Shown here: positions 1-14,460 of the stretch, one piece after another
Position numbering within the stretch: position 1 is the first letter of the stretch
Layout of the letters: each line of letters begins with the position of its first letter
Source: Paraburkholderia flagellata
GTDB taxonomy: Bacteria > Pseudomonadota > Gammaproteobacteria > Burkholderiales > Burkholderiaceae
Reading direction: 5' to 3'
Assembly (NCBI RefSeq): GCF_021390645.1
Contig: NZ_JAJEJT010000004.1
Location: 124,001 to 188,000 of the forward strand
Length of the DNA stretch: 64,000 nucleotides
Notes under the pieces: generated by a model
Databases searched by the model: none
What the model was told of the DNA's origin: nothing
What the model saw: the letters and a program-made list of their open reading frames with translations, nothing else
Position numbers and translations under genes: made by a program

Positions 1-434
1 TCACGGCCGCCGGTACCGCCACGGCTGATGCGACGCAGCGGCACGAACGCGAACTCGCCGCGGAGCGGGTGCGCTACGAGGGCCTGTCGAAGCAGCTGCT
101 GCGCGAGACCGCCCACCAGCGCGAGACGTTCCAGACCGAACGGCAGCGCCTCGAGGCGGAACTCGCGCGCGCCGCGGAGCGGCTACAGGCCCTCGAATCC
201 CTGCGCGAGCGCCTGCTCGCGGACCTGTCGCAGGAACGCGAGGCCCGGCAGCACGCCGCCGCGGAAGCCGCGGCGCTCGCCACGCTGGTGGACCAGCAGC
301 GCCAGACCCTGGCGCGCATCGGTGCCGGTTCAGTCAACGGACGGGGCAAGGCGGCAGGTACGCGACCAGCCGCCCATCGCACGGCCCGAACGACAAAGGC
401 GGCCGCCGGCCGGTCCACGGGGAAAGCGCGATGA
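1..434 (+). CDS. C-terminal part of a coiled-coil (KfrA/TnpT-like) accessory protein, 5' end outside window
   Basis: An open frame enters from the left edge (codons in phase from base 3) and stops at 432-434. About 143 residues are visible. The first 100 are a Glu/Arg/Ala/Leu heptad-rich coiled coil; the last 35 are a basic Ala/Lys/Arg/Thr tail that could contact DNA. No catalytic motif is visible. The stop overlaps the next start as ATGA, so it is translationally coupled to the recombinase downstream. KfrA-like and TnpT-like coiled-coil proteins are known partners of tyrosine recombinases in transposons and islands; that role here is inferred. The N-terminal DNA-binding domain, if present, lies outside the window. 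Confidence 0.6.
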   Translation, partial: TAAGTATADATQRHERELAAERVRYEGLSKQLLRETAHQRETFQTERQRLEAELARAAERLQALESLRERLLADLSQEREARQHAAAEAAALATLVDQQRQTLARIGAGSVNGRGKAAGTRPAAHRTARTTKAAAGRSTGKAR

Positions 435-1918
435 CTGCCGTGACGCCATCGCGCTGGCTCGATACCGGCTGCCGGCCACCGCAGCGGCTGCCGGACACGA
501 CCGACGCGGCGCTCGCCTACGTCGCGCACGCGCTCGGCCACCCGGTCTACCTGCGCTGGACACTCACGGCGCTCAAGCGCGGCTGCCCGTCGCTGGCCGA
601 TGCGAAGCGCGAGCACCCGGCCGTGTTCGCGCTGCTGCTCGAGCGTGACGCCGCCATCGAATACTGGGATCACGGGCGCCTGCGCGTGGTGCCGGAGGCC
701 TCGGCGCCGTCTGCCGCCACCGTGCTTGAACGCACCCTGCGGCAGCACCGTCGGCGCTTCCGTTGCATGACGGCAGGCCCTGTGCCGGACACCGCCGTCA
801 CGGTCCAGCAGGCCGCCACGGATGACGCGGCCCGGCTGCCCGCTGGTGTCGATCCGGTGTGGATGGCTCGCGCCGGGCGCTTCGCGAATGCGGCGGCGCT
901 CACCAACACCCTCGGCGTGGCCGATGACGCGCAGGCGGTGCGCCTCTTCTTGCGCGAGCGCGCCTCGCACTCGCCGCACACCCTGCGCGCCTACGTGACG
1001 GAACTGCGGCGGCTTGCGGCCTGGTGCCGGCGCGAGCACCTGGGGCCGTTCTCGGATCTCACCCGCCAGGACCTGATGGCGTACCGTGACGCCATCCAGG
1101 CGCCACAGCATCACGGGGACGGCAAGACCCGGCGCGCAGCGCCGGCCACCACCTCCCGCGCGCTCGCCGTGGTCTCGAGCCTCTTTGCCTGGTGGCACCG
1201 CACGGGCTATCTCATGGTCAATCCGGCGGAAGGACTGGCCGCCGGGCGGCGCGCCCGCATGACCTGGACGCCGGTGCGGTTCCTGCCCGCGGCGGCCCTG
1301 GGGCACTGCGATGCGGTCGCCGCCGGTGACGCGCCGGAAGACGTTCCGGCAACGGTCTGGGCCAGGCGCCGGGCCATCTGGGCGCTGTACCGCTTTGCCG
1401 GCATCCGGCTCGCTGAACTGGTGTGGCACGAGGCACTCGCGCTGCCGCGCATCGAGGTGGATGAGACCCGGCAGTGGACCCTGCACGTCACCGGCAAGGG
1501 GAACAAGCTGCGCGCGATCCCGCTGCCCTCAGGCTGCCTGCCGGTGCTGCGTGCCTACCGTCGGGCGCGGGGCCTGCCCGCGGATCCGCCGTCCGGCGAA
1601 CACCTGCCGCTCATCCACAGCGAACGCGGCCGCGCGCTGGGTGCGAGCGGCTTGTACGACGAGGTGCGGGCGGTGTTTGCGCTGGCGGCGGCACGCCTGC
1701 CGCCGGAAGAGCGCGCGATGCGCGCGGCGCTCGAAATGGCCTCCACGCACTGGCTGCGCCACGGCTACGCGCGCACGCTTGTGGTCGACCATCGCGTGCC
1801 GCTGCCGGTGGCGCAGGCGCTGCTCGGCCACGCCTCGGTGCAGACGACGGCGGCCTACGCGAGGACCGACACCACGCAGCTGCGTGCGTTTGTGGAGGAG
1901 AGTTTTGCTGCCCGCTGA
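431..1918 (+). CDS. Tyrosine recombinase/integrase, 495 aa
   Basis: Site-specific recombinase expected to cut and rejoin DNA through a phosphotyrosine. The core-binding SAM-like domain is around residues 160-265 (SPHTLRAYVTELRRL and following) and the catalytic domain around 285-490. The visible active site is R326 (AGIRLAEL), a Lys in GKGNKLRAIPL (356-359), H440 and R443 (HWLRHGYA), H467 (LLGHAS) and Y476 (AAYAR), so the catalytic set is complete. The roughly 150-residue N-terminal extension is longer than in a typical phage integrase. It starts in an ATGA overlap with the coiled-coil gene. GC is as high as the host core, unlike the recombinase trio downstream. Whether it mobilises the island or resolves a transposon cannot be told from this window. 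Confidence 0.9.
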   Translation: MTAVTPSRWLDTGCRPPQRLPDTTDAALAYVAHALGHPVYLRWTLTALKRGCPSLADAKREHPAVFALLLERDAAIEYWDHGRLRVVPEASAPSAATVLERTLRQHRRRFRCMTAGPVPDTAVTVQQAATDDAARLPAGVDPVWMARAGRFANAAALTNTLGVADDAQAVRLFLRERASHSPHTLRAYVTELRRLAAWCRREHLGPFSDLTRQDLMAYRDAIQAPQHHGDGKTRRAAPATTSRALAVVSSLFAWWHRTGYLMVNPAEGLAAGRRARMTWTPVRFLPAAALGHCDAVAAGDAPEDVPATVWARRRAIWALYRFAGIRLAELVWHEALALPRIEVDETRQWTLHVTGKGNKLRAIPLPSGCLPVLRAYRRARGLPADPPSGEHLPLIHSERGRALGASGLYDEVRAVFALAAARLPPEERAMRAALEMASTHWLRHGYARTLVVDHRVPLPVAQALLGHASVQTTAAYARTDTTQLRAFVEESFAAR

Positions 1919-2014
1919 AAGACGCGGCACCGATTGTGCCGTCCGGAAAAGAGCGGGCTGTCTATCTGGCGCCATGGATGGCTGATTGACTTCTTTATAA
2001 ACAGGGAGCCGGCA

Positions 2015-3049
2015 TTACTCGAGTAAACGCCTGAGCGGCGAATCGCGCATCGCGATAGAGGTGCCGTCGACGACAAGGTCCAGTTCACTTTGCCTCAAAC
2101 AAAATGCTGGCTGCTGAACGGGCGAGAATCTGAACCGGGCTGGTACCCAACCATATGCAATCAGGCCGATAACTACCTCACCGATATTTGCTGCCAGTCC
2201 CATCCCGATCGGTCCGAACGTATGTCTGTCACCGCCGCGGAGCCAGATTCTGGACTCCCATGCCTGCAAGAATGTGGCAAGCTGATTCCACAAAGCTTTG
2301 AGAAACAGCCAGTCAGCAGTCTCAAGGCACGGCAACGCTTCAGGAAACATCCGGCCCAGATTCTCGTAAATGGCCAACCAGGCCTCGTTCGATATTTCGC
2401 GTGATGCGACCCTTATTTTAAGATACGCTCGCGCGTACTCGTACGGATTGCCAATAACCTGCGCGCGCCGGAGCCGGAACCAGAGTATCTCGGCGGTAGA
2501 GATTGAAGGCATCCCGCACACCAACGTCGGACTCATGAGTTCCTTCCATATTTCACCTGACAAGACCGGCGACCAAAGGTCGCGCGAAGCGTCCTGCAGA
2601 TTTGCAATTTTGGGTACAAGCGAATCTAGCCTCTGCGCGGTCCAGTCGTCTTCCGAAAGCAAATGCCATAGCGGCGCCTCATCGTCATTCAGCATATCCA
2701 GAACAGCGCTTTGTGCGACCTGTCCCAGTTCGCGCCGGCATGTCGCTATGGCGCCGTTCCGGCGCCTGCTGGACGCGTCGAATTCAGGGAGTTGACCAAG
2801 CCGCAACCAGCGATTCCGACCTGCGCGGGAAGCGGCGCCGCTGAGCGCGAGTCTGTCTGCTGCGCGGGACAGACTCACTTCGCCTGTCGCGATCAAGGCC
2901 GCCTTCTGAAGGAGAGTCAGCCGCAAGGTCGCCACGTCTGACGCCCGCCCTCTTCCACTCGGGACCTCGGAGCTGTCGCACCGAAACTGATAGTGGTAGC
3001 CGTGACGCGGACTGTTCCGGCCCACTGATGAAAATGCGACGAAATCCAT
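2015..3049 (-). CDS. Uncharacterised protein, 344 aa
   Basis: I do not recognise this protein. The start is set at the ATG at 3049 because a very strong purine-rich ribosome site (GGAGGGGGGGCG) sits directly before it; an upstream start at 3073 would add 8 residues. It is soluble-looking, rich in Trp, Leu and Arg, with no signal peptide, convincing membrane segment or cofactor motif. The middle (about 85-200) looks helical, and the second half has an aromatic stretch (WLFLKALWNQLATFLQAW). It reads toward the integrase end and is divergent from the small HTH-like gene at 3210. It lies inside mobile DNA between two recombinase units, so it is accessory cargo; a regulatory or defence role would be a guess. 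Confidence 0.6.
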   Translation of the reverse strand: MDFVAFSSVGRNSPRHGYHYQFRCDSSEVPSGRGRASDVATLRLTLLQKAALIATGEVSLSRAADRLALSGAASRAGRNRWLRLGQLPEFDASSRRRNGAIATCRRELGQVAQSAVLDMLNDDEAPLWHLLSEDDWTAQRLDSLVPKIANLQDASRDLWSPVLSGEIWKELMSPTLVCGMPSISTAEILWFRLRRAQVIGNPYEYARAYLKIRVASREISNEAWLAIYENLGRMFPEALPCLETADWLFLKALWNQLATFLQAWESRIWLRGGDRHTFGPIGMGLAANIGEVVIGLIAYGWVPARFRFSPVQQPAFCLRQSELDLVVDGTSIAMRDSPLRRLLE

Positions 3050-3209
3050 CGCCCCCCCTCCGTCCGCACACACTTTTTACCCTGCAATTCTATGTTCGCG
3101 CATAAGACCCGACTGTCCTTTAATCCACTACAGAGGCCAACTCGAATTGACCGCCTGCTAGCGACAAGACGCGACATTCCGCGACACAGAGCACAGGGAC
3201 ACGACTGCT

Positions 3210-3464
3210 ATGAAAAACCCGGACGTTGACCCGGTCGTCGACTCGCTCGCCGAGCGACACGGGCCGCTCCTCGGTGGCACCGCCCTCTGGCATGTGCTGG
3301 GTTACGCCAGCGCCCGGGCATTCAGCAAAGCCGTCGAACGTAACACCGTTCCGGTCACCACCTTTCACATACCCCATCGACGGGGGCGCTTTGCAATGAC
3401 ACATGATGTCATCGCCTGGTTGCGAGCGACGTCGGCAATAACGTGCCGCAAGCAAAACGCGTAA
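3210..3464 (+). CDS. Small putative DNA-binding protein, PrtN/HTH-like, 84 aa
   Basis: A short basic protein with the pattern of small HTH proteins found beside integrases: a helical first half (LAERHGPLLGGTALWHVLGY), then SARAFSKAVERNTVPV, a short beta-like segment (TTFHIPHRRGRFAMT) and a final helix (HDVIAWLRAT). This resembles pyocin-activator PrtN-type or excisionase-like winged-helix folds, but assignment by eye is tentative. The ribosome site before the ATG is weak. It diverges from the 344-aa gene across about 160 bp and precedes the recombinase trio, so it could regulate either side. Recombination directionality factors often have this size and charge; that is inference. Confidence 0.5.
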   Translation: MKNPDVDPVVDSLAERHGPLLGGTALWHVLGYASARAFSKAVERNTVPVTTFHIPHRRGRFAMTHDVIAWLRATSAITCRKQNA

Positions 3465-4040
3465 CGAATTCCGACCGACATGGAGGCATACCGATGAAGT
3501 AACCCGACCCTTAAGAAGGGCCCAGAAACGAAAACGCCCGGGTTCCGACACCCAGGCGCGTCCGCACTGCTTCTTGCGTCAAGTTCTCGCTCGACAGAAT
3601 CAGTCTGGTTCGCTTTCCGCCGCTTGTCAACCGGCGGAAGCGGTGATCCTTTTGCCGCTGCTTCATTGTGTGCTGGACGTTACCCGAAACTTCAGCACCC
3701 AGAAGGCAAGTCGTCGTTTCTCCCTTCGCCGGATAGACCGTGGCTTCCGACATCAGTGCGCGCTCGTCGCGCCGGCATGTCCGGATGCCGATCAGACACG
3801 CCATAAGCCTGGCGGGGAGATTGCAATGAGTCCCATCACCTCCGACAGAGGAATGCGAAAGAGTCTGGATCGATCCCCTGCTGGACCCTCCACACGTGTC
3901 TGTCCATTGAAATTGTGTCTCACAAAACAACGAAAGCAGACAGCGGGCGCGACCTCGCAACCACCTTGTAGTCGCGTTCGGTCTGCAACGCATTTCCAGA
4001 TGCACTTGTCGGCATCACTTTATTCGAAATGAGGTCACGT
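3465..4040 (+). other. Non-coding stretch ahead of the recombinase trio
   Basis: No convincing gene is seen. Open frames on both strands have atypical residue composition for this genome and no ribosome sites. It contains one terminator-like hairpin facing the minus strand (3535-3558). The trio promoter and, by position, one end of the element should lie here, but no terminal repeat was found by eye. Confidence 0.4.
3535..3558 (-). terminator. Terminator-like hairpin on the minus strand
   Basis: Nine-base arms CGCCCGGGT and ACCCAGGCG (one G-T type mismatch) enclose a 6-base loop. Read on the minus strand it is followed by TTTTCGTTT, the form of an intrinsic terminator. No recognised minus-strand gene lies just upstream of it, so it may end an unannotated RNA or a decayed gene, or insulate the trio. 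Confidence 0.45.
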
Positions 4041-5348
4041 ATGGCACGCATAGAGTCTGTGCGCTTTGCGCCACGCCGAGCTGAGGTTGATGCGGAGAAC
4101 AACTTAGTCAATTGGCGGCTTACACGATCAGGGAAAGTCATCGAGAAACTTCCCAACATTTTCTGGAAGAGCGGCCTGCCGTGGCGTGAGGCAAATATCT
4201 GGCTGCTCCAAGGGGCAATCGATCACGACATCGACATCGACATCAAGACCGTGTTCTCACGCGCAGCAGGAGTTCTAGGGTACGCAACTTGGCTGGAGGA
4301 AACTGACACAGACTGGTGGGACTTTCCTCTCAAGGAGTCAAAACGCTGTCTGAAGCGCTACCGTGGATACTTGATCGGCTTACGCAAGACTGGTTCATTG
4401 GCGCCATCAACAGTCTCACAACGAATGAACGTAGCCATACGACTGACTCGCTGGTTACGCGACCAACTACTCCTTTCATCCGATTGGCCATTGTGGACGG
4501 AGCGGACGATTGGAATCCACATTCCAGATCCCACAGGTGTTGTGCGCATTCTCAGTGTTGCCACAACTGATTTGAGCATTTCAAATCGTCGCCCGCCCGG
4601 CACACAACTCGAGGACGGCCTACGGCCTGTCTCACTTGAGGATCGCGACAGAGCACTGATTCTTGAGAGCGAGTGCGCTTCAGAAGAGCTATTCTTGATG
4701 CTCTCGATTGGATTCTTTTGTGGAATGCGCATCGGAACAATTGCATCGCTGAAGGTCCAAACATTGGAACGTGCGGTTCCAGACCCCGACGCTCCCGGCT
4801 TCTACCGGATTGCTGTCGGACCGCGTGCCTCCCCATCCGTCGCAACAAAGTTCGGCGTAGACGGACAAATACCAGTATCAAGCGCGATGCTCAACGAACT
4901 GCAAGCGTACGCATCATGCCCAGAGCGTCTCAAGCGGGAGATGAGGGCTGCCAAACATAATAAGGATCTTCTTTTTCTAACCCGGTATGGCAACGCGTAC
5001 TGCCAGAATGGTTCCCAAAGTAGCAACGCGATAAATGTCGAAATGCACAATCTCCGTCAGCTCGCGGCCAGACGGAACTTCGACGGTCTTCGAAAGTTCC
5101 ACTTCCATCAAAGTCGCTGCACTTTTGCGACCGAGCTTGCAAGACTGGCTATTCGGGTTGGTGGATCGATGTTTGCGGTAGCAATTGTAAAGGAATTCCT
5201 CCTGCATCGGCACGAGTCTACATCGTGGACCTACATACGGTTTATCGAAAAGACTAAAACCAAGGAGAAAGTGGCAAACGCCTTCGCGGAGCAATTCCTA
5301 GGCCTGGTTGAGGGGGTACGGAGAACAAAAAGTGACCCAACTGCCTGA
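4041..5348 (+). CDS. Tyrosine recombinase A of the trio, 435 aa
   Basis: First gene of the block. The ATG at 4041 is preferred over 4029 because GAGG lies 6 bases before it. The catalytic domain occupies the second half: R230 in FFCGMRIGTI, HxxR as H356-Q-S-R359, and H389 with Y398 nine residues apart (LLHRHESTSWTYIRF), the usual spacing of the last His and the nucleophile. A Lys near 270 (VATKFG) may be the beta-hairpin Lys. The N-terminal half has an arm-like or core-binding region (WWDFPLKESKRCLKRYRGYL and following). All key residues are present, so it is probably active. It overlaps recombinase B by 17 bases. Confidence 0.85.
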   Translation: MARIESVRFAPRRAEVDAENNLVNWRLTRSGKVIEKLPNIFWKSGLPWREANIWLLQGAIDHDIDIDIKTVFSRAAGVLGYATWLEETDTDWWDFPLKESKRCLKRYRGYLIGLRKTGSLAPSTVSQRMNVAIRLTRWLRDQLLLSSDWPLWTERTIGIHIPDPTGVVRILSVATTDLSISNRRPPGTQLEDGLRPVSLEDRDRALILESECASEELFLMLSIGFFCGMRIGTIASLKVQTLERAVPDPDAPGFYRIAVGPRASPSVATKFGVDGQIPVSSAMLNELQAYASCPERLKREMRAAKHNKDLLFLTRYGNAYCQNGSQSSNAINVEMHNLRQLAARRNFDGLRKFHFHQSRCTFATELARLAIRVGGSMFAVAIVKEFLLHRHESTSWTYIRFIEKTKTKEKVANAFAEQFLGLVEGVRRTKSDPTA

Positions 5349-7020
5349 TCTAACGCTACCCTCCATGCAATTATCCGAAAAGATCGCTGGCTGGGATCTG
5401 GCCTACATCGTCTACGCAAAGGGCACAGAGCTCAAACCATCGGAATTTTGGCGTTGCGACAAAACAGGCCTAGGGAGAATCAAGAGAAACCGGATAGCGC
5501 TTGCTGTTGCCATTCATGAGGTCTTTGACGCGCAACTTGCTGGTGGAGGCAGCCCAATTTCAGCGAAATCTACGCTGCATGGACTCTGGAGGTTCATTAA
5601 ATGGGCAAACCTGGAAGGAAGGGATCTTGCGCTGGAAACCATACGAGATGACTATCTGGCGTGGAGCGATTATTTAATCCTCAAAATAAGACGTGGTGCG
5701 CTCAAACAGAGTTCTGTGATCATACTAGCGTCGACCGTTGGACGGGTACTGGCGAAGGCGCTCGGGCGACCTCGAAGTTTGCTTTACGACTCCCGCGTGC
5801 CAAAAGACTCACCAGCCACTGCAAAGTCAAGCAAGAAATACCTGCAGAACCTGGCAAAAACGATGGCCTTTGGGAGTATGTTGTGCGACCTCGTAACTGC
5901 AATAACCGTCGACGCCGTCCGCGGCCCCCTGCCGCTAACGATACCACTTCGGAACGGGCGCGTGCTCGTCGAATGGGCCGGGTTGTGGCCCGAAGACAGG
6001 TTGCGGTCGGCTCCCGAATCGCAATCCCGACGGAAGCACATTCAGAACAGACAACCGCTCACTGACGACGGCGATTGGCTGTCACGGTCGAGCATCAGCA
6101 ATCTTCGAATCGAAGCAGAGATGCTCATCTTCGTGGCCTGTACAGGTATGAATCTCTCCCAAATGATCGACCTAAAAGCTGGTGATTTCACATTCACTAG
6201 CTGCTTCAACGGATACGAAGTTAGAAGGTTATACAAAGACCGTCGGCATGGAGAAGTGGAGTTCGTAATTTACTCGACCTATCGGGTTTTTTTCGAGCGA
6301 TACCTCTCCTGGAGAAAGCGGCTGTACCCGGACGACGATCGGCTTTTCCCCAGAACAAGCACCGAGGGGAAACGTCTGAATCCCTTTTCAATGCAATTTT
6401 TCTTAGTAATGCGCCGCTGCAAACGTGCTGGTGTTGCGTTCGTCTCTCCGCAAATCCTAAGAAATACCCAGGTTAATTGGTTGCTCCGACTTTCCAAGGA
6501 TGCTGAAGTGACCGCCGAAATGTCCCAGCATACCCAAGAGACCCTGCTTCGCATCTACGAGCAACCGAATCACCAACTTGCGGCTGTAGAAATCTCGCAG
6601 TACCACGCAACGTCTGACCCTACCCTGTCTGCGGTGGGTCCAGGCGGATGCGATGGCGGCAACGCGGCGCCGATACGTTTCCTACCAGCCGAAGCGCCCA
6701 AACCTGACTGTGCGAGTCCAGCTGGTTGTCTATTTTGCCAACAACATCTTGATGTTGACACCTTGGACTACGTCTGGTCCCTGGAGACTTACAGGTATCT
6801 GAAATCACTAGAGTTAGCGAATTTTCGACCCATCGGCAACCGCCGAGATCCTCATCCAGCAAGACTCACAATAGAGCGGGCGAAGGCGATCCTTGATGAA
6901 TTCAGGGGTATCGATACGGTCCACGCGATGTGGGTCGACGAGGCCGTACTGCGGATTCGAGAGGAGCGGTACCACCCGGCATGGGAGGGTTTCATCAGAA
7001 TCGCGGAGATACTTAAATGA
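5332..7020 (+). CDS. Tyrosine-recombinase-like protein B of the trio, 562 aa, degenerate active site
   Basis: The GTG at 5332 is preferred because GGAG precedes it by about 8 bases; an upstream ATG at 5308 is possible. The recombinase fold is visible but altered: the first catalytic Arg position in TGMNLSQM is Asn274, and the HxxR box reads Q374-I-L-R377 so its His is replaced. H400 and Y409 keep the nine-residue spacing (SQHTQETLLRIYE). A Cys cluster follows (C460, C466, C469: PDCASPAGCLFC), possibly part of a metal site. Loss of two catalytic positions suggests a structural or regulatory partner for A and C. It sits between them with overlaps on both sides, implying equal production. Confidence 0.8.
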   Translation: MTQLPDLTLPSMQLSEKIAGWDLAYIVYAKGTELKPSEFWRCDKTGLGRIKRNRIALAVAIHEVFDAQLAGGGSPISAKSTLHGLWRFIKWANLEGRDLALETIRDDYLAWSDYLILKIRRGALKQSSVIILASTVGRVLAKALGRPRSLLYDSRVPKDSPATAKSSKKYLQNLAKTMAFGSMLCDLVTAITVDAVRGPLPLTIPLRNGRVLVEWAGLWPEDRLRSAPESQSRRKHIQNRQPLTDDGDWLSRSSISNLRIEAEMLIFVACTGMNLSQMIDLKAGDFTFTSCFNGYEVRRLYKDRRHGEVEFVIYSTYRVFFERYLSWRKRLYPDDDRLFPRTSTEGKRLNPFSMQFFLVMRRCKRAGVAFVSPQILRNTQVNWLLRLSKDAEVTAEMSQHTQETLLRIYEQPNHQLAAVEISQYHATSDPTLSAVGPGGCDGGNAAPIRFLPAEAPKPDCASPAGCLFCQQHLDVDTLDYVWSLETYRYLKSLELANFRPIGNRRDPHPARLTIERAKAILDEFRGIDTVHAMWVDEAVLRIREERYHPAWEGFIRIAEILK

Positions 7021-9065
7021 CACAAGATCTAGCCACAGCCCGCCTGTCAATCGATTCACAAATCGTCAACTCATTGGCGAGTAACTATCGCCTAACCTCG
7101 TGGCCCCCGAAAGATGATTTTCCTATCGTGATTGACCGCAAAGGCAATGTAATCAGTAGATTCGGCGACCCGTACTGGGACCTGACTGTGTGGAACGATG
7201 GCGTTAGTCTCCGGCTCTATTTTGGAGCACATTTAAATAAAGCCAACAAAAATTACATATCACCTGAAAATGCGAGACTTTTGAAATTAATCTCCGTCTG
7301 GATTCTCTATTTTGATCGTGAATTTAGAAAAGCAGTCACATTATATTCATTTATGAAAAGACTCAAGCCAATCTTTGTGATTTGCACAAAGAATAATGTT
7401 CTTGCGTCAGATTTGACAAGATTTCCCGCTTTGCTTGAAACGGCACTCGAGAAAATAAACGGAACCTTTGCTTCGACTGCTCTATGTGTGTTTCACCAAT
7501 TATTCGAACACCGAAACGAAATAGGGTTTATTATTTTTGATCGATGCGCGTTGAAGACAATTAGCGATTCCGCCAACTTTGGTGAGAAATTTGGTCAGAC
7601 TGCTTATATTCCGCCACGGATCTGGACATATCAATTGAATCGCTTGCGAGAATGTCTTGATGATTTTATTAGACATGCCGACGACGTTTCGAAATGCTTC
7701 AATTACTGTCTTGATGCCTATGTGCGCAGTTACGGTTCGTTAAAGAACGCAACCGCCAGTGGGCGTGACCTCGATCTCGCGCCGTTCAACGTAAATTGCC
7801 CTGAACATCTTGGCGGATATCGTGGACCATTTCGCGATGTTGCAAAGAAATTCGGCATTGCTGAGTTGCTGGAGCGTTGGACTCTTCGCGGGAGCGGCGA
7901 AGCCGGTCAACTCCCGGTATCGACGTTGACGAGCTATTTTCAGACGATAATGTATGTGAGCCTGATATATATACTGAATTTTTCTCTAATGCGAGTTTCA
8001 GAAGCCACCCGTCTTCGCTCAAACTGCCTCGAGATCGATGATGATCCAACGTTCGGCCCGATCTATCTTCTCCATGGTGTCACCACCAAGTCCTATGATG
8101 ATGATGATGCACGCTGGGTGGTATCCGTCTCGGCTCGCGTGGCAGTCGAAGCCGCAACCATCATCGCGCGGTTGCGCGCAAAGTCGGCTAATTTGAAACT
8201 GCCGCATGGGCGAACCACGAAAAAGGACAGCAGTGTCCTGTTATTCACTCCTGCATGTGAACCGTGGGCCCAAGGCGCACCAATGGCAGAGACTGCATTT
8301 CGATGGTCGCCTAAATCGTATGGAGAAATGATTACCCTGACACTAGCCAACGTTTTTGATCCGTGCGAGCTTCGGGTCACGAAAGAGGATCTAGAGATCG
8401 CCAGGTTAGTTACACCGAGTCTCGACGCTGAGAAGTTCAAGATTGGCGCGATCTGGCCACTCGCGTACCATCAATTGCGGCGAACGGGAATGGTGAATAT
8501 GCAGGCCTCCGGGATCGTGTCGGAAAGCTCAATGCAGTATCAGGCCAAGCACGCAAGGCGCGCGATGTCTCTCTATTATGGGCAGGGATATTCACAAGTA
8601 GCGGTCAATCGATCGGCACGTCGCGAATATATTCGAACCATGTACGAAATGCTTGGGAAGGAGATCGAGCGGCTTTTCCAGAGTCGGTTTGTTAGCCCCT
8701 ATGGTCGCCAACGTAAATCGGAAATCTTGCATTTGGTCAGCGATCGTGACTCAAAAAAAATCCTCGCTGCAGGAAAAGCTGGAAAAGTCACATGCCGACA
8801 AACGCTGCTCGGTATGTGCGCGCGGCGTGACGTATGTAAATTCGGCGGTATCGATAATATTGTACATTGCGCTGGGGACGATAAGCATCAGCCCTGCTAT
8901 GACGCCCTTTTTGATCGGGCAAAGGAAGCCGAAATTTTCGAGCTTAGAGACGTTCTTGACGAGCAATTGCTAAAGGCAGCGATCGGCTCTCCATTGTACG
9001 ATTCACTATTGGCACAGAGATGTGCGGCGGAGAAGGTACTTGGTTACTTTGCTAAAAGGAAGTGA
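7017..9065 (+). CDS. Tyrosine recombinase C of the trio, 682 aa
   Basis: The start overlaps the stop of B as ATGA, with GGAG 14 bases upstream. This is a very long member of the family. The N-terminal 300 residues are unlike common integrases and rich in Asn, Phe, Ile and Lys. The catalytic region has R326 (FSLMRVSEATRL), K358 (TTKSY), H485-Q-L-R488 and H512 with Y521 nine apart (KHARRAMSLYY). A C-terminal Cys/His-rich segment (C593, C601, C607, C618, C627) looks like a zinc-binding module. Codons are AT-rich compared with every other gene here, a clear sign of foreign origin. Catalytically complete. Confidence 0.85.
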   Translation: MTQDLATARLSIDSQIVNSLASNYRLTSWPPKDDFPIVIDRKGNVISRFGDPYWDLTVWNDGVSLRLYFGAHLNKANKNYISPENARLLKLISVWILYFDREFRKAVTLYSFMKRLKPIFVICTKNNVLASDLTRFPALLETALEKINGTFASTALCVFHQLFEHRNEIGFIIFDRCALKTISDSANFGEKFGQTAYIPPRIWTYQLNRLRECLDDFIRHADDVSKCFNYCLDAYVRSYGSLKNATASGRDLDLAPFNVNCPEHLGGYRGPFRDVAKKFGIAELLERWTLRGSGEAGQLPVSTLTSYFQTIMYVSLIYILNFSLMRVSEATRLRSNCLEIDDDPTFGPIYLLHGVTTKSYDDDDARWVVSVSARVAVEAATIIARLRAKSANLKLPHGRTTKKDSSVLLFTPACEPWAQGAPMAETAFRWSPKSYGEMITLTLANVFDPCELRVTKEDLEIARLVTPSLDAEKFKIGAIWPLAYHQLRRTGMVNMQASGIVSESSMQYQAKHARRAMSLYYGQGYSQVAVNRSARREYIRTMYEMLGKEIERLFQSRFVSPYGRQRKSEILHLVSDRDSKKILAAGKAGKVTCRQTLLGMCARRDVCKFGGIDNIVHCAGDDKHQPCYDALFDRAKEAEIFELRDVLDEQLLKAAIGSPLYDSLLAQRCAAEKVLGYFAKRK

Positions 9066-9066
9066 C

Positions 9067-9510
9067 GTGCTTCCAGAATCGGCGGAGAGCGCCTTTCGAT
9101 CTGCGTTCGAACGGTTGAAGGTAGGGAAACCCGTTCGATTATCGGTCGGCACAGCGATAACCCAAGCCAGTGTGGCACAAGAAGCGGGTTGCGATCCTTC
9201 AGCGCTACGCAAATCACGCTATCCCCTCTTGATCAGCGAGATACAACGTTGGCAACGAGACAACCCGCCGAAGCCGGCACCGTCGCAGCGCCAGCTGACT
9301 CGCGCCAAACGTGAACAGCGGCGCGACGACCGAGCGAGGCTATCAGAAGTTGTAAAACAGCGCGACAGCCTGGCATCGCTGTTGATGGAAGCCGATACAA
9401 AAATTGTGGAGCTCGTAAAGGAAATTGCGGAGCTCAAAGAGCGAACTCCGAAAGAGTCATCTAATGTAGCCAACTTCCCGGGAAATCGCTCCCGGAGAAA
9501 CGGACTGTGA
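9067..9510 (+). CDS. Small HTH plus coiled-coil accessory protein, TnpC/DUF6262-like, 147 aa
   Basis: Starts with GTG at 9067, one base after the stop of recombinase C, with AAGGA before it. Residues about 15-60 look like a helix-turn-helix (TAITQASVAQEAGCDPSALRK), then Pro/Arg-rich basic residues, then a heptad coiled coil (about 85-125) ending in a polar tail. The architecture matches the small TnpC/DUF6262 proteins that accompany Tn554-type recombinases and influence orientation and efficiency of transposition. The family is inferred from shape and position; no direct sequence match could be tested. Confidence 0.65.
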   Translation: MLPESAESAFRSAFERLKVGKPVRLSVGTAITQASVAQEAGCDPSALRKSRYPLLISEIQRWQRDNPPKPAPSQRQLTRAKREQRRDDRARLSEVVKQRDSLASLLMEADTKIVELVKEIAELKERTPKESSNVANFPGNRSRRNGL

Positions 9511-10571
9511 CGTACTCCGTATTTCAAGGGGCGCAAACGTGTCATCCGTCGCAGTGCGCGAACCTTGGACTGCGCTGTGGATACGCCAAAGGACGGATTA
9601 TATGCGTCGGTGTGGGCGCGACAGTCGAATAACTGTGTGCGGGAACGACGCGCTCCGCTCATCTCCGAATCTCGCAAGCGCGCGCTTAGCAGCCACCCAA
9701 CGGCGATCAACATAACTCTTCAACAATACCTGCCCCAGCTTCACGAAGCCCATAACAGATGCCATCCGCCAGCATGCCTGCTGAGCCCCGACCCGGTTCT
9801 TCTCGAGCGTCCCGCGGCTAACGTAATTCAACGTCGGATGCAGTCGCGCGACCTCCAGGAACGTAGAGGCTTTGGTCAGCGCTCTAAACCAACAATCGCC
9901 GCTTCAAATCATCGCTTAACGGATGCCGTACGCCTCAAGTGACTCCTGGGAGATCCTGCCGCAATATTGGCTGCCGGTTCTTTACACAGAATCACACCGG
10001 CCTCGGGGCAACGCCGAAGCCGTGCTACGCCCAGCGCATCTGGTTATCACCTCGGCATACGGAGGTCGCTGCATCGACTAGCCCTTCACCGGACAATTCC
10101 GACGACCAGATACAGCGAGCCTTCAGCCATCGCTCCAGGCGAAAAATCTCCCCAGACCCAATTCGGCGCATGCCGCCTCAAGACGGGCTCCGACACGTTA
10201 CAGTGTTCGCCCGGCAGCCCTTAGGAAGGTCGACTTCGCCGTTGTAATCCACCTGCGCGTTGCCGTGCGCTGATCCCCTGCTGCGCTATCAGCCTTCTTT
10301 CCTTATGCACGCCATCGCCGCATATTTGATCTCGACTCGTGCTCCCCGTGTGTACAACTGAGCTGCCCACACCACAAGGGCGTGGACAGCCGCCAATCGG
10401 CGGTCCCTCAGTTGCACACACTCGGAACTGACGCGCGCCTGCGGCGCTTGCCCAAATTAAGGAAAAGGGAAGAAAAACTCGACATGACTTGGCGCACCAA
10501 ATGTGCAGGTCCGTCGGTGCGATGTCCATCGGCTGATACTAATAGTGATGACTGTCAATGCACTCTGCTAA
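9511..10571 (+). other. Non-coding or decayed kilobase at the island's right side
   Basis: No gene can be supported. A minus-strand frame between about 9880 and 9598 reads as a plausible basic protein segment (about 95 residues, no start or ribosome site) and may be a remnant I cannot name. Other frames are broken and compositionally random. The stretch contains the large inverted repeat at 10348-10421. The junction with host DNA is probably just before 10572. Confidence 0.45.
10348..10421. repeat. 74-bp structured inverted repeat with two internal hairpins
   Basis: Outer arms GTGTGTACAACTGAG (10348-10362) and CTCAGTTGCACACAC (10407-10421) pair over 15 bases with one mismatch. Inside are a second imperfect hairpin (CCACACC with GGCGTGG around 10368-10386) and a perfect one (CCGCC-AATC-GGCGG, 10390-10403). 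Together they would fold as a three-way junction. It is too regular to be chance; possibilities are an element end, a structured RNA or a recombination site. Confidence 0.6.
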
Positions 10572-10730
10572 CGTGTAGGCTTCATTCCGAGCTATACGTT
10601 GCAAAGCGGACGCTTCAAGGACACGAAGATCACCTTCATCGCCATGTGGCATCACGCCTCGAAGTACTACTCCGACCCGAGTAACCAGGAATACCGGCTC
10701 GTCATCAACATGCCGTTGAAGCTGTTCTGA
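10572..10730 (+). pseudogene. 3' fragment of an outer-membrane beta-barrel (porin-type) gene
   Basis: A 52-codon frame without a start, preceded by an in-frame TAA at 10569, ends at 10728-10730. It reads as two or three amphipathic beta strands with alternating aromatic residues (KDTKITFIAMWHHASKYY, then QEYRLVINMPLKLF) and a terminal Phe, the signature of a Gram-negative outer-membrane barrel C-terminus. The exact porin family is not certain. The abrupt beginning beside the island suggests the mobile DNA replaced or interrupted the rest of the gene. A GC-rich hairpin near 10748-10770 separates it from the convergent gene. Confidence 0.6.
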
Positions 10731-10784
10731 AGCGCCGCAGTCGTGACGCGGCGGCGCGGGCCGCCGCCGCGTGCGCCGTGCGCG

Positions 10785-11192
10785 TCAAGCCTCGCGGGCA
10801 AACACCTCGCGCGCGGCGAAGAGACCGTTGAGCGCCGCGGGAAAGCCCGCGTACACTGCCATCTGCATGATCGTCTCGACGATCTCCTCACGCGTGAGCC
10901 CCACGTTGAGGCCCGCGGCAATATGGACCTTGAGTTGCGGCTGCGCGTGGCCAATGGCCGTGAGCGCCGCGATGGTGGCAATTTCGCGCGAGCGAAGGTC
11001 GAGACCGGGCCGCGCGTAGATGTCGCCAAATGGAAATTCCAGCAGATACTGCGCGAAATCCGGTGCGATATCGGCGAGCGAGTCGATCACGTGCTCGCCG
11101 CCGCTGCCATCAATCGCCGAGAGCATGCGCTTGCCTCTTGCGAGGCGGCTTTCCTGCTGGGCGGCGCTGACCTGATTCATCGTTTCGTACAT
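10785..11192 (-). CDS. Carboxymuconolactone decarboxylase/AhpD-like family protein, 135 aa
   Basis: All-helical CMD-family protein: PGLDLRSREIATIAALTAIG followed by KVHIAAGLNVGLTREEIVETI and YAGFPAALN are the classic family blocks. The AhpD CxxC pair is absent, so it is closer to the decarboxylase-like or uncharacterised branch than to the peroxidase partner. The ATG at 11192 is chosen because AAAGGAA lies just upstream; it lies inside the end of the MerR gene (83-base overlap), so the two are coupled. Members next to MerR regulators are often induced by aldehydes or electrophiles. The substrate is unknown. Confidence 0.85.
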   Translation of the reverse strand: MYETMNQVSAAQQESRLARGKRMLSAIDGSGGEHVIDSLADIAPDFAQYLLEFPFGDIYARPGLDLRSREIATIAALTAIGHAQPQLKVHIAAGLNVGLTREEIVETIMQMAVYAGFPAALNGLFAAREVFAREA

Positions 11193-11553
11193 TCTCGTTC
11201 CTTTGCATGGCGTGGGAATAACCTTCGATCTTTTTGTCGAGGACGAGAAGACACGCCTTGAGTTCAGCCACCTGCGCACGCACCGCTTCGCGATGCGCCG
11301 CCAGCAATTCGCCGCGCTCGCACTCGGTTGACTTACCCGCCGCGCGCAGTTGCGCGTAGCGCAACATGCCCTGGATCGGCATGCCCGTGGTCTTCAGACG
11401 GCCGAGGAACTCGATCCATTCGAACACCGAGCGGTCGTAAGCGCGCTGGCCGGTTTCGTCGCGCACCGCATAGGGAATCAGCCCGATGCGCTCGTAGTAG
11501 CGGATCGTGTGGGCCGAAAGGCCCGTGAGCGCGGCCAGTTCACCAATCTTCAT
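11110..11553 (-). CDS. MerR-family transcriptional regulator, 147 aa
   Basis: N-terminal winged HTH of the MerR type (MKIGELAALTGLSAHTIRYYERIGLIP, residues 1-27), a second wing (GQRAYDRS), then the dimerisation helix (about 75-118, CERGELLAAHREAVRAQVAEL). There is one Cys at about residue 78 in STECERGE and a further one in the helix, but not the metal-binding pattern of MerR/CueR. It resembles the AdhR/NmlR aldehyde-responsive group. The start at ATG 11553 matches the first HTH residue. It is the first gene of a two-gene operon with the CMD protein and has its own 19-bp-spacer promoter. Confidence 0.9.
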   Translation of the reverse strand: MKIGELAALTGLSAHTIRYYERIGLIPYAVRDETGQRAYDRSVFEWIEFLGRLKTTGMPIQGMLRYAQLRAAGKSTECERGELLAAHREAVRAQVAELKACLLVLDKKIEGYSHAMQRNENVRNDESGQRRPAGKPPRKRQAHALGD

Positions 11554-11578
11554 GCACTTCTCCTCATCGACGTTCTGA

Positions 11579-11609
11579 ATAGTGGGACTTCGAGTGCACT
11601 CCAGGTCAA
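11579..11609 (-). promoter_or_regulatory. MerR-type promoter/operator with 19-bp spacer
   Basis: On the minus strand, TTGACC (11609-11604) and CACTAT (11584-11579) are separated by 19 bases carrying the dyad-like ACTTCGAGTGCACTCCAGGT. An over-long spacer containing a dyad is the hallmark of MerR-family activation by DNA untwisting. It reads into the merR-CMD operon and ends about 25 bases before the MerR start. Confidence 0.75.
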
Positions 11610-11731
11610 GCACTTTTTTGGTTGAACTCGAAAATTGAAATGACAATGAAAACTTCCTACTCGTCCGTAGTTCCCACGCCGACCATCATGCGCTTCCAAT
11701 CGCTACACCAACAGTAGGCTTAGCCGTGACG

Positions 11732-11881
11732 TTGATGACCGGTTTGATTCGAGGTGGGCTGCTGCATCTGGGCCATTTTGACGTGACGACTTTCGCGCTC
11801 GACGATGCGAACGAGGCAGTCGCTCATGCAGCGGCGAATGGCGGCCCATTCCGGATGACGGTGATCAGCCCAGCGCGTTGA
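11732..11881 (+). pseudogene. C-terminal remnant of a zinc-type alcohol dehydrogenase
   Basis: A frame with no start gives about 49 residues that match the last strand-helix of medium-chain dehydrogenases (GLIRGGLLHLGHFDVTTFAL, then DDANEAVAHAAANGGPFRMT), stopping at 11879-11881. The rest of a normal roughly 340-residue enzyme is missing. MerR regulators of the AdhR kind usually sit beside an alcohol dehydrogenase, so this may be the lost divergent target. The 270 bases after it, up to the xylanase gene, hold only a decayed frame ending near 12100. Confidence 0.65.
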
Positions 11882-12151
11882 CGAGTGTGGTTCTTCGCAG
11901 ACGATCACACAATGGGCGACCGGTATCGCGTCGAATCCGTTCTTCCCGTAACTGCTGCAGCGGATCGATGAAGGCATCGGCAAGATGCCGCCGCCGGTCG
12001 TCAAGTCGCCACCGCGCACGCATGAAACCGCGGACGGTCGGCCCGACGATTTCGAGGCCGATCTGAACCCGCGCGAGCAGGTCGGCTCCGACGAGCCTTG
12101 ATGGCCCGCACAATACCGGAGGTCATCTGCTTCCCGGCTTGAACGTTGACG

Positions 12152-13336
12152 TTACGGCTGATAAGACGAATCGACGATCGTCCACAGCGCAGCTTTCGGC
12201 TTCAGGTTCGCATCGAAAGGCAACGGCAGGTTGCTGCGCGGCACCGGCGTCGACGTCAGCCACGTATGCTTGTCTGAATAGCCCCAGAACGTCACCGCCT
12301 TGATGCTCGGCTCCTGCTCGAACAGAGCGAACACCGCACGATATCGCTCGGCTTGCGCGCGCATGATGTCGTTCGGCACAGGATGGCCGAGGTCCGGCAG
12401 ACATGCATGCGGATTGCTCCAGCATTCGCCCGGATCGGTATAGAGACTCACGTCGAGCTCGGTCACCTGGTTTTCGAGGCCGAGCGCGGCGACGTCGTCG
12501 AACGCCTGCTTGATGTTCGGTAGCGGCGGCCAATTCACGCTGATATGCATCTGATGCCCGACCCCGTCGATCGGCACGCCCTGCGCGCGGAGATCGCGGA
12601 TCACCGCGAGCAGCTTCGCGCGCTTGCCCGGATCGTCCGTGTTGTACTCGTTGATATAGAGCTTCACGTTCGGGTCCGCCGCGCGCGCCGCGCGGAAAGC
12701 GATCGCGATGTAGTCCTTGCCGAGCGCGCGATACCACGGACTGTCTTCGCGATACACCTGATGCGGGTCGTCGCTGATCACTTCGTTGACCACGTCCCAT
12801 GCATAGACCTTGCCGCGGAAGTGTGTGACGACGTCGGTTACATATCGATCGAGCCGCTTCGCCACGATGTCGTGATAGTGAGGGTCTTTTGGATCGCCGG
12901 CGAAGAACCAGGCCGGCGCTTCGGTCCAGTCGCCCGCCTTGAAGTGCCAAACGAGCGTATGGCCGCGCACCGCGATGCCGTGCGCCTGAGCAAACGCGAC
13001 GATCTGGTCGGCAGGCTCGAAGTTGTACTGGCCTTCCGCGACGCCGATCGTGCCCGGCTTCATCTTGTTCTCGGCGGTGAGGCTCGAGAACTGTGCGGCG
13101 ATGAGCGCCGCGTCGGCGGGACTGTCGATCGAATCGGGTTCGATCGCCGCGCCGACCTTGAAGTGCGCGGCCATCACACTGCGCAGTGGCGGCAGCGCTT
13201 CAGCGGGCGCCGCGGCGAGCGGCAGCCCGTCGTGGGCAGTCACCGTCTGGTTGTTCGCGCAGCCCGCGGCCCATGCGAGCGTGCAAACGGCCACGGCTGC
13301 GCAGAGCATGCGCATCGAAGTCCTCAAAGGACGCAT
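12152..13336 (-). CDS. GH10 endo-1,4-beta-xylanase, lipoprotein, 394 aa
   Basis: Hydrolyses internal beta-1,4-xylosidic bonds of xylan. The ATG at 13336 follows AAGGAGA at ideal spacing; longer starts (13354, 13405) are less likely. The signal peptide ends in a lipobox (LAWAAGC) so Cys26 should carry lipid and anchor the enzyme to a membrane. GH10 barrel blocks: ENKMKP, HTLVWH (126-131), the acid/base WDVVNE with Glu185, YINEYN, QMHIS and the nucleophile TELDVS with Glu293, then FWGYSD. Two Cys in the late loop (ECWSNPHAC) may form a disulfide. The gene stands alone with LacI-type palindromes upstream. No xylose genes are adjacent. Confidence 0.92.
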   Translation of the reverse strand: MRPLRTSMRMLCAAVAVCTLAWAAGCANNQTVTAHDGLPLAAAPAEALPPLRSVMAAHFKVGAAIEPDSIDSPADAALIAAQFSSLTAENKMKPGTIGVAEGQYNFEPADQIVAFAQAHGIAVRGHTLVWHFKAGDWTEAPAWFFAGDPKDPHYHDIVAKRLDRYVTDVVTHFRGKVYAWDVVNEVISDDPHQVYREDSPWYRALGKDYIAIAFRAARAADPNVKLYINEYNTDDPGKRAKLLAVIRDLRAQGVPIDGVGHQMHISVNWPPLPNIKQAFDDVAALGLENQVTELDVSLYTDPGECWSNPHACLPDLGHPVPNDIMRAQAERYRAVFALFEQEPSIKAVTFWGYSDKHTWLTSTPVPRSNLPLPFDANLKPKAALWTIVDSSYQP

Positions 13337-13391
13337 TGCTGGTCTCCTTGTCATGTGACGCTCGTCCGGGTGTATTCTAACCACTCGTAAC

Positions 13392-13403
13392 GTTAGCGGT
13401 AAC
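13392..13403. promoter_or_regulatory. Second LacI-like half-symmetric site
   Basis: GTTAGCGGTAAC (flanked as CGTTAGCGGTAACAACG) is near-palindromic around a central CG, similar to TGTTAGCGCTAACA-type LacI-family operators of Burkholderiales. It is 55 bases upstream of the xylanase ATG, a repressing position. Confidence 0.45.
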
Positions 13404-13515
13404 AACGCGGATGTTAGGCAGCGCCCCCCGGACCGGCTATGAGGGATTTACCTGAGGTATGAACGAGGCGATGCAAGGTGACTGAGTGTCGAGTCAATCG
13501 ATTTGACTCAGCGCG

Positions 13516-13535
13516 ATTTGAAAGCGCTTTCAAAT
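13516..13535. promoter_or_regulatory. LacI/GalR-type operator palindrome
   Basis: ATTTGAAAGCGCTTTCAAAT is a perfect 20-base palindrome with the central CG and TGAAAGCGCTTTCA core typical of LacI/GalR-family binding sites. It lies 180 bases upstream of the xylanase start. No LacI gene is in the window. Confidence 0.6.
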
Positions 13536-13677
13536 GGAGTTGCACCGACCTGGCGCGCCACCGACTGCGCGAAACGGAGTACCTCTCACTCAATCCCAAC
13601 TAGCGGGACGGGAATACCGAAGCTCTTCAGCGCGCGGCGTGCTTCAAACGTCGTGCGTGCGGCGATTCAGTTTGATT

Positions 13678-13989
13678 TCAATGTGCGCCCAACGAGCCTC
13701 CATCTGGGGAGAGCCGATTGTCCACCGAGGTGACACCGGGCACCGACATCGCACTCTGTTCGGCACGCGCGACATGTTCCCGCTCTGGCACCCATCCCAC
13801 CAGCGTGATCTGTCCTGAGTGAGCAAAGACAAACACGTGTGACATCCCGACGCCGCTGCGCGCCTCCGCGACGCGCACGGCATGGGCAAGCTGCTGGTCA
13901 GTGGCTTGCGCATCACCCTGGGCATGGGCCACCGGCGCGATTGCGCCCGAGATTAGCAACGCGAGCGTAGAAACAAGGGCTGTTTTCAC
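13678..13989 (-). CDS. Secreted BON-domain protein, 103 aa
   Basis: Starts with GTG at 13989 behind a strong AAGGAGG site. Residues 1-23 are a Sec signal peptide ending AHA. The rest is a single BON domain: helix (QLAHAVRVAEARSG), strand with ITLVGWVP, helix (EHVARAEQSAMSVPGV) and strand SVDNRLSP. BON domains bind membrane surfaces or partner proteins in the periplasm (OsmY/Kbp type). A single BON copy of this length is common in Burkholderiaceae. Its job here is unknown; it is next to, but not clearly in an operon with, the xylanase. Confidence 0.85.
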   Translation of the reverse strand: MKTALVSTLALLISGAIAPVAHAQGDAQATDQQLAHAVRVAEARSGVGMSHVFVFAHSGQITLVGWVPEREHVARAEQSAMSVPGVTSVDNRLSPDGGSLGAH

Positions 13990-14460
13990 GATACCTCCTT
14001 ACAAGTACTATGGTGTGCCGGCAAACTCCGCCGGCAACTCTTCCGGTCCGACTCAATGCGAGGCCACGGAAGTGCATCGGACAAAATCCTCTTTCCATTG
14101 CTCGCGTCGCGGCGATCGCGATTGCGCGTCGAGGTTTTGTCGGCCGGGGCGATGGGCGGTTGTGCCCTCGCCCGCAGAAAAGCGTGCAGGTGCAGTGTGT
14201 TCGAGCGGGACGTCGCGTGCGCGGCGTGGCGGGGGAACAGCGGGAGCCGAGGGATGGGAGCTGGTTGGCGCGTTCGTGGCGGAGCGCGAGAGCCAGACGG
14301 ATGCACTGACAATCCCGCACTCAGCCTGCTACGCGGCCGAGCCCGGCTCGTTGCCCGGCATCGTATGCATTGATGATAGTCGCTAATGTCCGCCACTGCT
14401 GGCGATACGCGTCGTCTTTTTTTGGGTCTTTTGTGCACCGACATTCGCGAGGCGCGCGGC
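13990..14460. other. Intergenic stretch without a supportable gene
   Basis: Frames on both strands are Arg/Ala-rich shadows with no ribosome sites. No hairpin with a T-run or clear promoter was noticed between the BON gene and the SulP gene. Confidence 0.4.

Follow-up and report, generated by a model that had tools for sequence, protein, structure and literature searches.

A probable core of a strand-biased circularizing integrative element within a 126.6-kb island of Paraburkholderia flagellata

Strand-biased circularizing integrative elements (SEs), described in 2022 (PMC9345347) and 2023 (PMC10214605), carry a core of four genes, intA, tfp, intB and srap, of which the first and third encode catalytic proteins and the second does not (PMC10214605). 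Among published SEs, the 37 whose ends are known measure at most 58.5 kb, and the available text places SEs in Gammaproteobacteria only, with no Tfp or Srap homologues identified in Alpha- and Betaproteobacteria (PMC10214605). GInts (ginABCD; PMC5385486, 2017) likewise have a four-gene operon, all genes of which are needed for recombination, and form islands bounded by short imperfect repeats, but according to the published description it is their third protein, not the second, that lacks the catalytic motif, and their genes show no blast similarity to those of SEs (PMC10214605). Recombinase-in-trio elements (RIT; ritABC) have three coding regions for proteins of 315-410 aa, all with the catalytic Tyr, and SEs share with Tn554 (tnpABC), which has no Tfp counterpart, one large recombinase, a 6-bp footprint and a TnpC-like small protein, encoded in SEs by the fourth gene (PMC10214605).

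Here we analyse a block of four overlapping or abutting genes in a 64,000-nucleotide stretch of P. flagellata, hereafter the window (positions 124001-188000 of contig NZ_JAJEJT010000004.1, abbreviated C4; other coordinates are window positions). An initial annotation, made from the sequence alone, described it as three large tyrosine recombinases followed by a small protein and took it for a less-described mobile unit, perhaps a bridge between RIT and Tn554. We consider it highly likely that the block is instead the intA-tfp-intB-srap core of an SE residing in Paraburkholderia, that this SE is a 126.6-kb island, and that the core lies inverted with respect to the island's own ends. The SE as a kind of element is already known; what is new is its presence in Betaproteobacteria, its size, the inversion and a directional terminal box, and neither host class nor size nor inversion can be recognised within the window by itself. 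The block consists of the following genes.

4041-5348, forward strand: gene A, intA, tyrosine recombinase of 435 aa from the ATG at 4041, with an alternative in-frame start at 4029
5332-7020, forward strand: gene B, tfp, tyrosine-recombinase-fold protein of 562 aa, with Asn274 at the position of the first catalytic Arg
7017-9065, forward strand: gene C, intB, large tyrosine recombinase of 682 aa, with a Cys cluster at its C terminus
9067-9510, forward strand: gene D, srap, small protein of 147 aa with a helix-turn-helix (HTH)-like segment and a coiled coil, starting at GTG

The layout is as first annotated, with overlaps of 17 bases (A/B) and 4 bases (B/C) and a 1-base gap (C/D), and in 1-kb steps the G+C content of the genes is 44-53%, against mostly 58-70% across the window. 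Relatives were collected by searching an alignment of B against GTDB species genomes; the best 80 of 99 confirmed loci were retained and combined with the window and three plasmid loci into a set of 84. The order A-B-C-D is kept in 79 of these; three of the five exceptions (L100, L134, L143) are cut by the end of the locus or contig, and in the other two (L098, L102) the C frame is short and D gives no hit. Such conservation argues that the adjacency is not due to chance and that the four genes form a single functional unit. The annotators' own concern that the genes might occur separately elsewhere is thereby answered.

The catalytic pattern is that of the SE core. IntA falls slightly below the cut-off of PF00589 (E 5e-6, 26.8 bits against 27.1) and matches the PHROG 1 integrase family (E 1.4e-11), and its residues R230, K270, H356, R359, H389 and Y398 are identical in all 83 aligned rows, the window included. 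Tfp matches PF00589 more weakly than IntA does; the first catalytic Arg is replaced by Asn in 84/84 rows and the residue at the first His position is variable, while R377 (84/84), H400 (83/84) and Y409 (84/84) are retained. IntB has no match in the same Pfam/PHROG-type scans, and its catalytic set is intact in every aligned row with a single exception at Y520. The catalytic residues first noticed in A and C thus prove to be complete sets across the relatives, and of the three recombinases announced two stand as such, the middle one being a recombinase-fold protein without its first catalytic Arg. In structure models, Tfp (mean predicted local distance difference test score, pLDDT, 83) would adopt a recombinase fold over roughly residues 50-430, matching XerA, Cre and XerH, and IntB (mean pLDDT 77.5, with low confidence near the tyrosines) gives weaker matches to IntI and Cre. 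Invariant cysteines near the C termini of Tfp (C440, C460, C466, C469) and IntB (C601, C607, C618, C627) may possibly bind metal. Srap gives chance-level matches only, and a Pfam search of 27 Srap members returned no consistent family; in the alignment of these members, on our own reading of which the HTH and coiled coil are assigned, residues Q33, A37, E39, A46, R51 and P53 of the HTH-like segment are invariant and the C terminus is rich in Lys and Glu.

Direct comparison with a named SE points the same way. Locus L002, a Klebsiella tmexCD plasmid, encodes WP_034039553.1 and WP_023443007.1, the pair of identifiers given for SE-PaeBT2436 (PMC10214605). The window Tfp is 39.7% identical to WP_034039553.1 over 99% and the window IntB 43.0% identical to the third protein (IntB) of SE-PaeBT2436 over 99%; its fourth protein, WP_023443007.1, occupies the same position as D. 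Core genes, order and catalytic pattern are therefore shared with an element known from tmexCD-toprJ plasmids and chromosomes (PMC10214605), which differs in being reported from Gammaproteobacteria, in having its core in the usual direction and, by our own reading, in lying in umuC. Closer still is the core of Paraburkholderia fungorum (genome G324, locus L172), with 49-50% identity in IntB, and in an IntB tree built by a quick method with an arbitrary root the window is sister to L172 with support 100. The P. putida plasmid of locus L001 carries, besides an SE core of its own, a second and distant four-gene operon (59-5081; 385, 536, 614 and 137 aa), whose first and third proteins match PF00589 and whose fourth matches DUF6262 weakly, below the cut-off; this operon probably represents another SE clade. 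DUF6262 is, we assume, the TnpC family of Tn554.

A GInt was our initial assignment, and the four overlapping genes, the site-specific island with imperfect-repeat ends (PMC5385486) and the presence of GInts in Betaproteobacteria (PMC10214605) all suit it. It was dropped because of the catalytic order published in PMC10214605 and because L002 carries the accession pair given there: GInts have the catalytic motif in their first two proteins and not in the third, whereas here it is missing from the second and present in the third, and the close sequence match goes to a named SE. A GInt of normal form starting just before intA is also set aside, as no terminus lies there. We regard the GInt reading as very unlikely. 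That the block is an RIT or Tn554-type element is scarcely credible. Three tandem recombinase-like proteins recall RIT, but proteins of 435, 562 and 682 aa, a fourth gene and a B protein that keeps its Tyr and lacks its first Arg do not fit; the pairing of a large recombinase with a TnpC-like small protein recalls Tn554, as PMC10214605 remarks, but the presence of Tfp speaks against an element of two recombinases and TnpC. The proposed bridge between the two groups is not borne out, despite the features that PMC10214605 lists as common to SEs and Tn554; the description as a multi-recombinase unit less described than either holds, except that such units have already been described, as SEs (PMC9345347, PMC10214605).

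The comparison of empty and occupied sites that the initial annotation had proposed, carried out with same-genus OprD loci, located both ends of the element. To the right of the block the DNA matches relatives from 10578 on (some only from further inside), a point that falls within the final 50 codons of a porin gene of the OprD family; the 5' part of that gene (PF03573 OprD, E 1.7e-97) ends at C4:7951 on the same replicon. The porin gene is whole in four of five same-genus loci (L046, L047, L048 and L050), the fifth, L049, matching only from 10762 on. The element is thus delimited to C4:7959-134577 (126,619 bp) on a 1.3-Mb replicon, so that the originally reported span of 4041-9510 covers the core genes only, the ends lying at 10577 on the right and, on the left, some 116 kb before the window begins. 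The features around the right end are as follows.

10578-10730, forward strand: 3' part left over from the split porin gene (OprD family), the 5' part of which is at C4:6450-7951, left of the window
10553-10577, reverse strand: putative motif C, the intA-type island terminus, reading TACACGTTAGCAGAGTGCATTGACA inward from 10577 and matching the intA-side terminus of L172
10523-10529, reverse strand: inner of two inward-pointing terminal boxes, ATGGACA, at 30 bases from the outer one (ATTGACA)
10578-10583, no strand: presumed central 6 bp of attB, GGCTTC, adjoining motif C; identical in L046, L047 and L050, GGCCTC in L048
9511-10520, no strand: about 1 kb between srap and the intA-type end, with short open reading frames (ORFs) only and no recognised gene; former cargo, if the core block is inverted
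3465-4040, no strand: region upstream of intA, where an SE terminus in the expected direction was not found

The junctions follow the rule known from SEs. The empty site in L046 reads CACCACGAGTTT-GGCTTC-ATTCCG, the left junction CACCACGAGTTT-TTCACT-TACCGATTAGG and the right junction GCTAACGTGTA-GGCTTC-ATTCCG; with GGCTTC beside one end and six other bases beside the opposite end, the SE 6-bp rule fits the island. Imperfect inverted terminal motifs corresponding to C and C' (TACACGTTAG and TACCGATTAG) point inward at the two oprD junctions, and an attB split by a 6-bp spacer can be read in the window (given the L046 base at one position), in L172 and in L175. In L172 the interrupted host gene matches its intact homologues in G020 and G362 up to query bases 1000 and 1005, TACACGTTAG starting at 1001, and its other half lies at C3:1019733-1021225 of G324, 167 kb away. 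The empty site in G020 is CTTT-CTCCGA-ATAGACC; on the intA side of L172 CTCCGA adjoins TACACGTTAG, and the far side reads CTAACGGGTG-TTTTGA-ATAGACC, so the rule also holds in this element of about 167 kb (G324 C3:1021230-1188295), which we did not find described as an SE in the parts of the SE literature covered. For L175 (genome G304), both ends of which are recognisable, the rule predicts the empty site TACTTT-CTCACG-GTGTACG, and the joined flanks match G385 without gaps at 96% over 498 bases, the centre being identical to the prediction. Elsewhere, the elements of L065 (Pseudomonas) and L176 (Cupriavidus) apparently occupy the same place of one gene, with translation NLAPADLPK..., which we take to be comM-like.

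The ends also carry a recurrent, inward-pointing box, ATGGACA/G, common to the relatives. Among 77 loci with 400 bases upstream of intA (the window and L001, L002 and L003 left out), ATGGAC[AG] occurs there on the coding strand in 47 and on the other strand in three, as against 35 of 991 operon pieces; 30 of the 77 have no coding-strand box. Successive boxes are 29-30 bases apart in 12 of 17 cases, and this spacing is the commonest upstream of intA in the relatives; the two boxes inside the right end of the island are 30 bases apart. In the available running text of the SE papers we found no description of such terminal boxes, and for GInts no common self-recognition feature was found at the 3' end (PMC5385486). 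A match between termini is more specific. The first 25 terminal bases of L172 find their best match at C4:134577, the right junction, in reversed orientation (19/25), the only site in 188 kb on both strands to reach 17/25. Because the L172 terminus had originally been singled out for its resemblance to that of the window, the comparison was repeated over all offsets within the 700 bases before the L172 intA, where over 60 bases the right end scored 38/60, against 300 random draws with a mean of 27.7 and no score above 32, and the left end of the island scored 28.

The direction of the core is what sets this island apart. In L172 some 180 bases separate intA from the TACACGTTAG end, and the core reads inward, the normal direction; in the window srap lies about 1 kb and intA about 6.5 kb from the TACACGTTAG-type end at 10577, and the core reads towards that end. 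L172 and the window thus have in common the closest core, an intA-type terminus of the form TACACGTTAG...ATTGACA and the 6-bp rule, and differ in core direction, in length (167 kb in L172) and in target gene. As the TACACGTTAG-type end is nearest srap, opposite to the arrangement in L172, the core would be inverted relative to its own ends, an inversion of a 6-7 kb segment being the simplest reading. The usual SE layout, with intA beside motif C and the core pointing inward, which is not among the criteria stated in the available text of PMC10214605, is therefore absent here, and the one orientation exception reported there concerns srap alone. A search for the same flip among the 77 relatives yielded L137 and L138, which have a tandem box pair after srap that also fits the distal-end pattern; the search is weak in that the window itself escapes its pattern, one of its boxes being ATTGACA. 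A candidate distal-type end lies within 2 kb of srap and 5.4-6.0 kb from intA in 10 of the 77 loci, which would leave almost no cargo there.

Several observations weigh against a single inverted SE. A fuller motif (ACSGRTTAG, a gap and ATGGACR, scored out of 16) reaches 16/16 once in 188 kb, at C4:7960 of the left junction, and never in five shuffles, yet it was composed after the relatives' ends and the left junction were known; by it the right junction scores 13/16, a level that about 30 other places also reach (31-44 in each shuffle). For the 6-bp reading, the ancestral site must have had a T ahead of its centre; the nearest locus, L046 (96%), has this T, whereas L047, L048 and L050 have C. 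No third box was found at the distal end, and in L175 only a single base distinguishes the footprint, CTGACG, from the centre of the target, CTCACG. The window core points outward, unlike those of L172 and of other relatives whose intA-side end can be recognised; beside the block there is no clear inverted repeat that could account for a flip; and the island is composite, containing a second recombinase trio and two large serine recombinases. The last three points would also suit an island delivered by another SE that later lost its core, the window block being an independent SE core that arrived near the right end and has no ends that can be recognised. What speaks against two elements is that the right end is of the type found in L172, the core's closest relative (IntB clade support 100), a lineage-specific terminus that weighs against a lost or second core; that tblastn of family members at E 1e-3 detected neither a second core in the island nor a remnant of one; and that no other end was found beside the block. 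In 3465-4040, no match to the fuller motif reached 13/16, the L172 terminus had none, and a lone box lies on the other strand at 3901. We judge two elements improbable, and retain the single SE with an inverted core.

Rfam (window 1-16000) and tRNA scans gave no matches; a promoter scan of 3400-4100 found no promoter and three terminator-like sites; the flank at 2015-4028 has no match among plasmids, and 9400-10600 has short Burkholderiales matches only. Beside the core, positions 1-1918 (G+C 71-74%) encode a coiled-coil-like protein, the start of which precedes the window, and, overlapping it, a 495-aa XerC-like tyrosine recombinase, and directly outside the island lies a glycosyl hydrolase family 10 (xylanase-like) gene (12152-13405, reverse strand).

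With 126.6 kb, the putative window SE is more than twice the published maximum. Its cargo, sampled through 29 of the 114 island ORFs picked by a simple rule, includes biotin carboxylase, aldehyde dehydrogenases, transporters and an electron transfer flavoprotein-ubiquinone oxidoreductase. The two serine recombinases are divergent genes at C4:93517-98431 (L052), with a RepB/ParB-like gene after the second, and the island probably grew by nested insertions. The trio within it, at C4:18559-25111, is a different one: 6.55 kb long, it encodes proteins of 407, 514 and 774 aa and then a 204-aa frame, and copies on C5 (L196, about 291.8-298.3 kb) and C6 (L197, about 104.4-111.0 kb) make three that are 99.94-99.97% identical on three replicons, as expected of a transposing element that has been active recently. 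SE core profiles match this trio marginally (A, E 0.0008; D, E 0.004; below 9 bits).

The gene order, catalytic patterns, ends, 6-bp rule and direction of the core relative to the ends, all legible in the sequence, are consistent with the following course. IntA and IntB would cut and join DNA at the imperfect inverted terminal motifs C and C', with Srap and Tfp, the latter a recombinase-like protein that lacks the first catalytic Arg, as partners. By analogy with the published SE model, one strand would be exchanged between the ends and replication would release a circular copy, a strand-biased, copy-out mode of movement that would leave no empty donor site. On integration of the circle, the central 6 bp of the target would stay beside C and 6 bp from the previous site would end up beside C'. 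At some point the core block would have been turned round relative to the ends of the element.

The published restriction of SEs to Gammaproteobacteria is an observation rather than a criterion, and the window lies in a betaproteobacterial host. Class labels here are our own reading of record names, with tree rows not labelled Beta entered as Gamma (among them L124, a Cytophagaceae metagenome-assembled genome, and L110, Proteobacteria); L099, labelled Streptomyces, is probably a mislabelled contig. So labelled, 36 of the 80 retained loci (the best 80 of 99) are betaproteobacterial. The window and L172 fall within a 20-row IntB set (support 95) of which 16 rows are labelled Gamma, and the starred branches of the tree force at least five changes between Beta and Gamma labels, nine being counted overall. 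Within the family, 13 of 299 genomes have strong matches to B (E <1e-60), and within the genus 11 of 144 have strong matches to C (E <1e-50), one of them a fragment; both counts include the genome studied. Distant IntB-like proteins (about 28% identity, 635-651 aa) occur in G330, G344 and other genomes of the genus, and the several copies with identical scores in G330 and G344 look like another multiplying element. Among the later reports listed, none of betaproteobacterial SEs was found.

A more sweeping proposal would make SEs a general tyrosine-recombinase copy-out class of Beta- and Gammaproteobacteria, able to exceed 100 kb and free in core direction, in which the recombinases flipped their own core between terminus-like sites, leaving the island one unit, and the Arg-to-Asn replacement in Tfp blocks second-strand exchange and so causes the strand bias; we offer it as speculation, rather unlikely as a whole. 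SEs carry resistance genes such as tmexCD-toprJ, and few papers deal with them. The invariant replacement in Tfp makes the question of strand bias testable by a single substitution, and the terminal boxes can be used to locate SE ends when comparison of genomes does not succeed, a limit named for Pseudomonas and Acinetobacter (PMC10214605). If SEs are common in Betaproteobacteria and can hold 126-167 kb, the published picture of SEs as narrow, host-dependent and no longer than 58.5 kb (PMC10214605) would need revision, and environmental Burkholderiales would form part of the SE reservoir.

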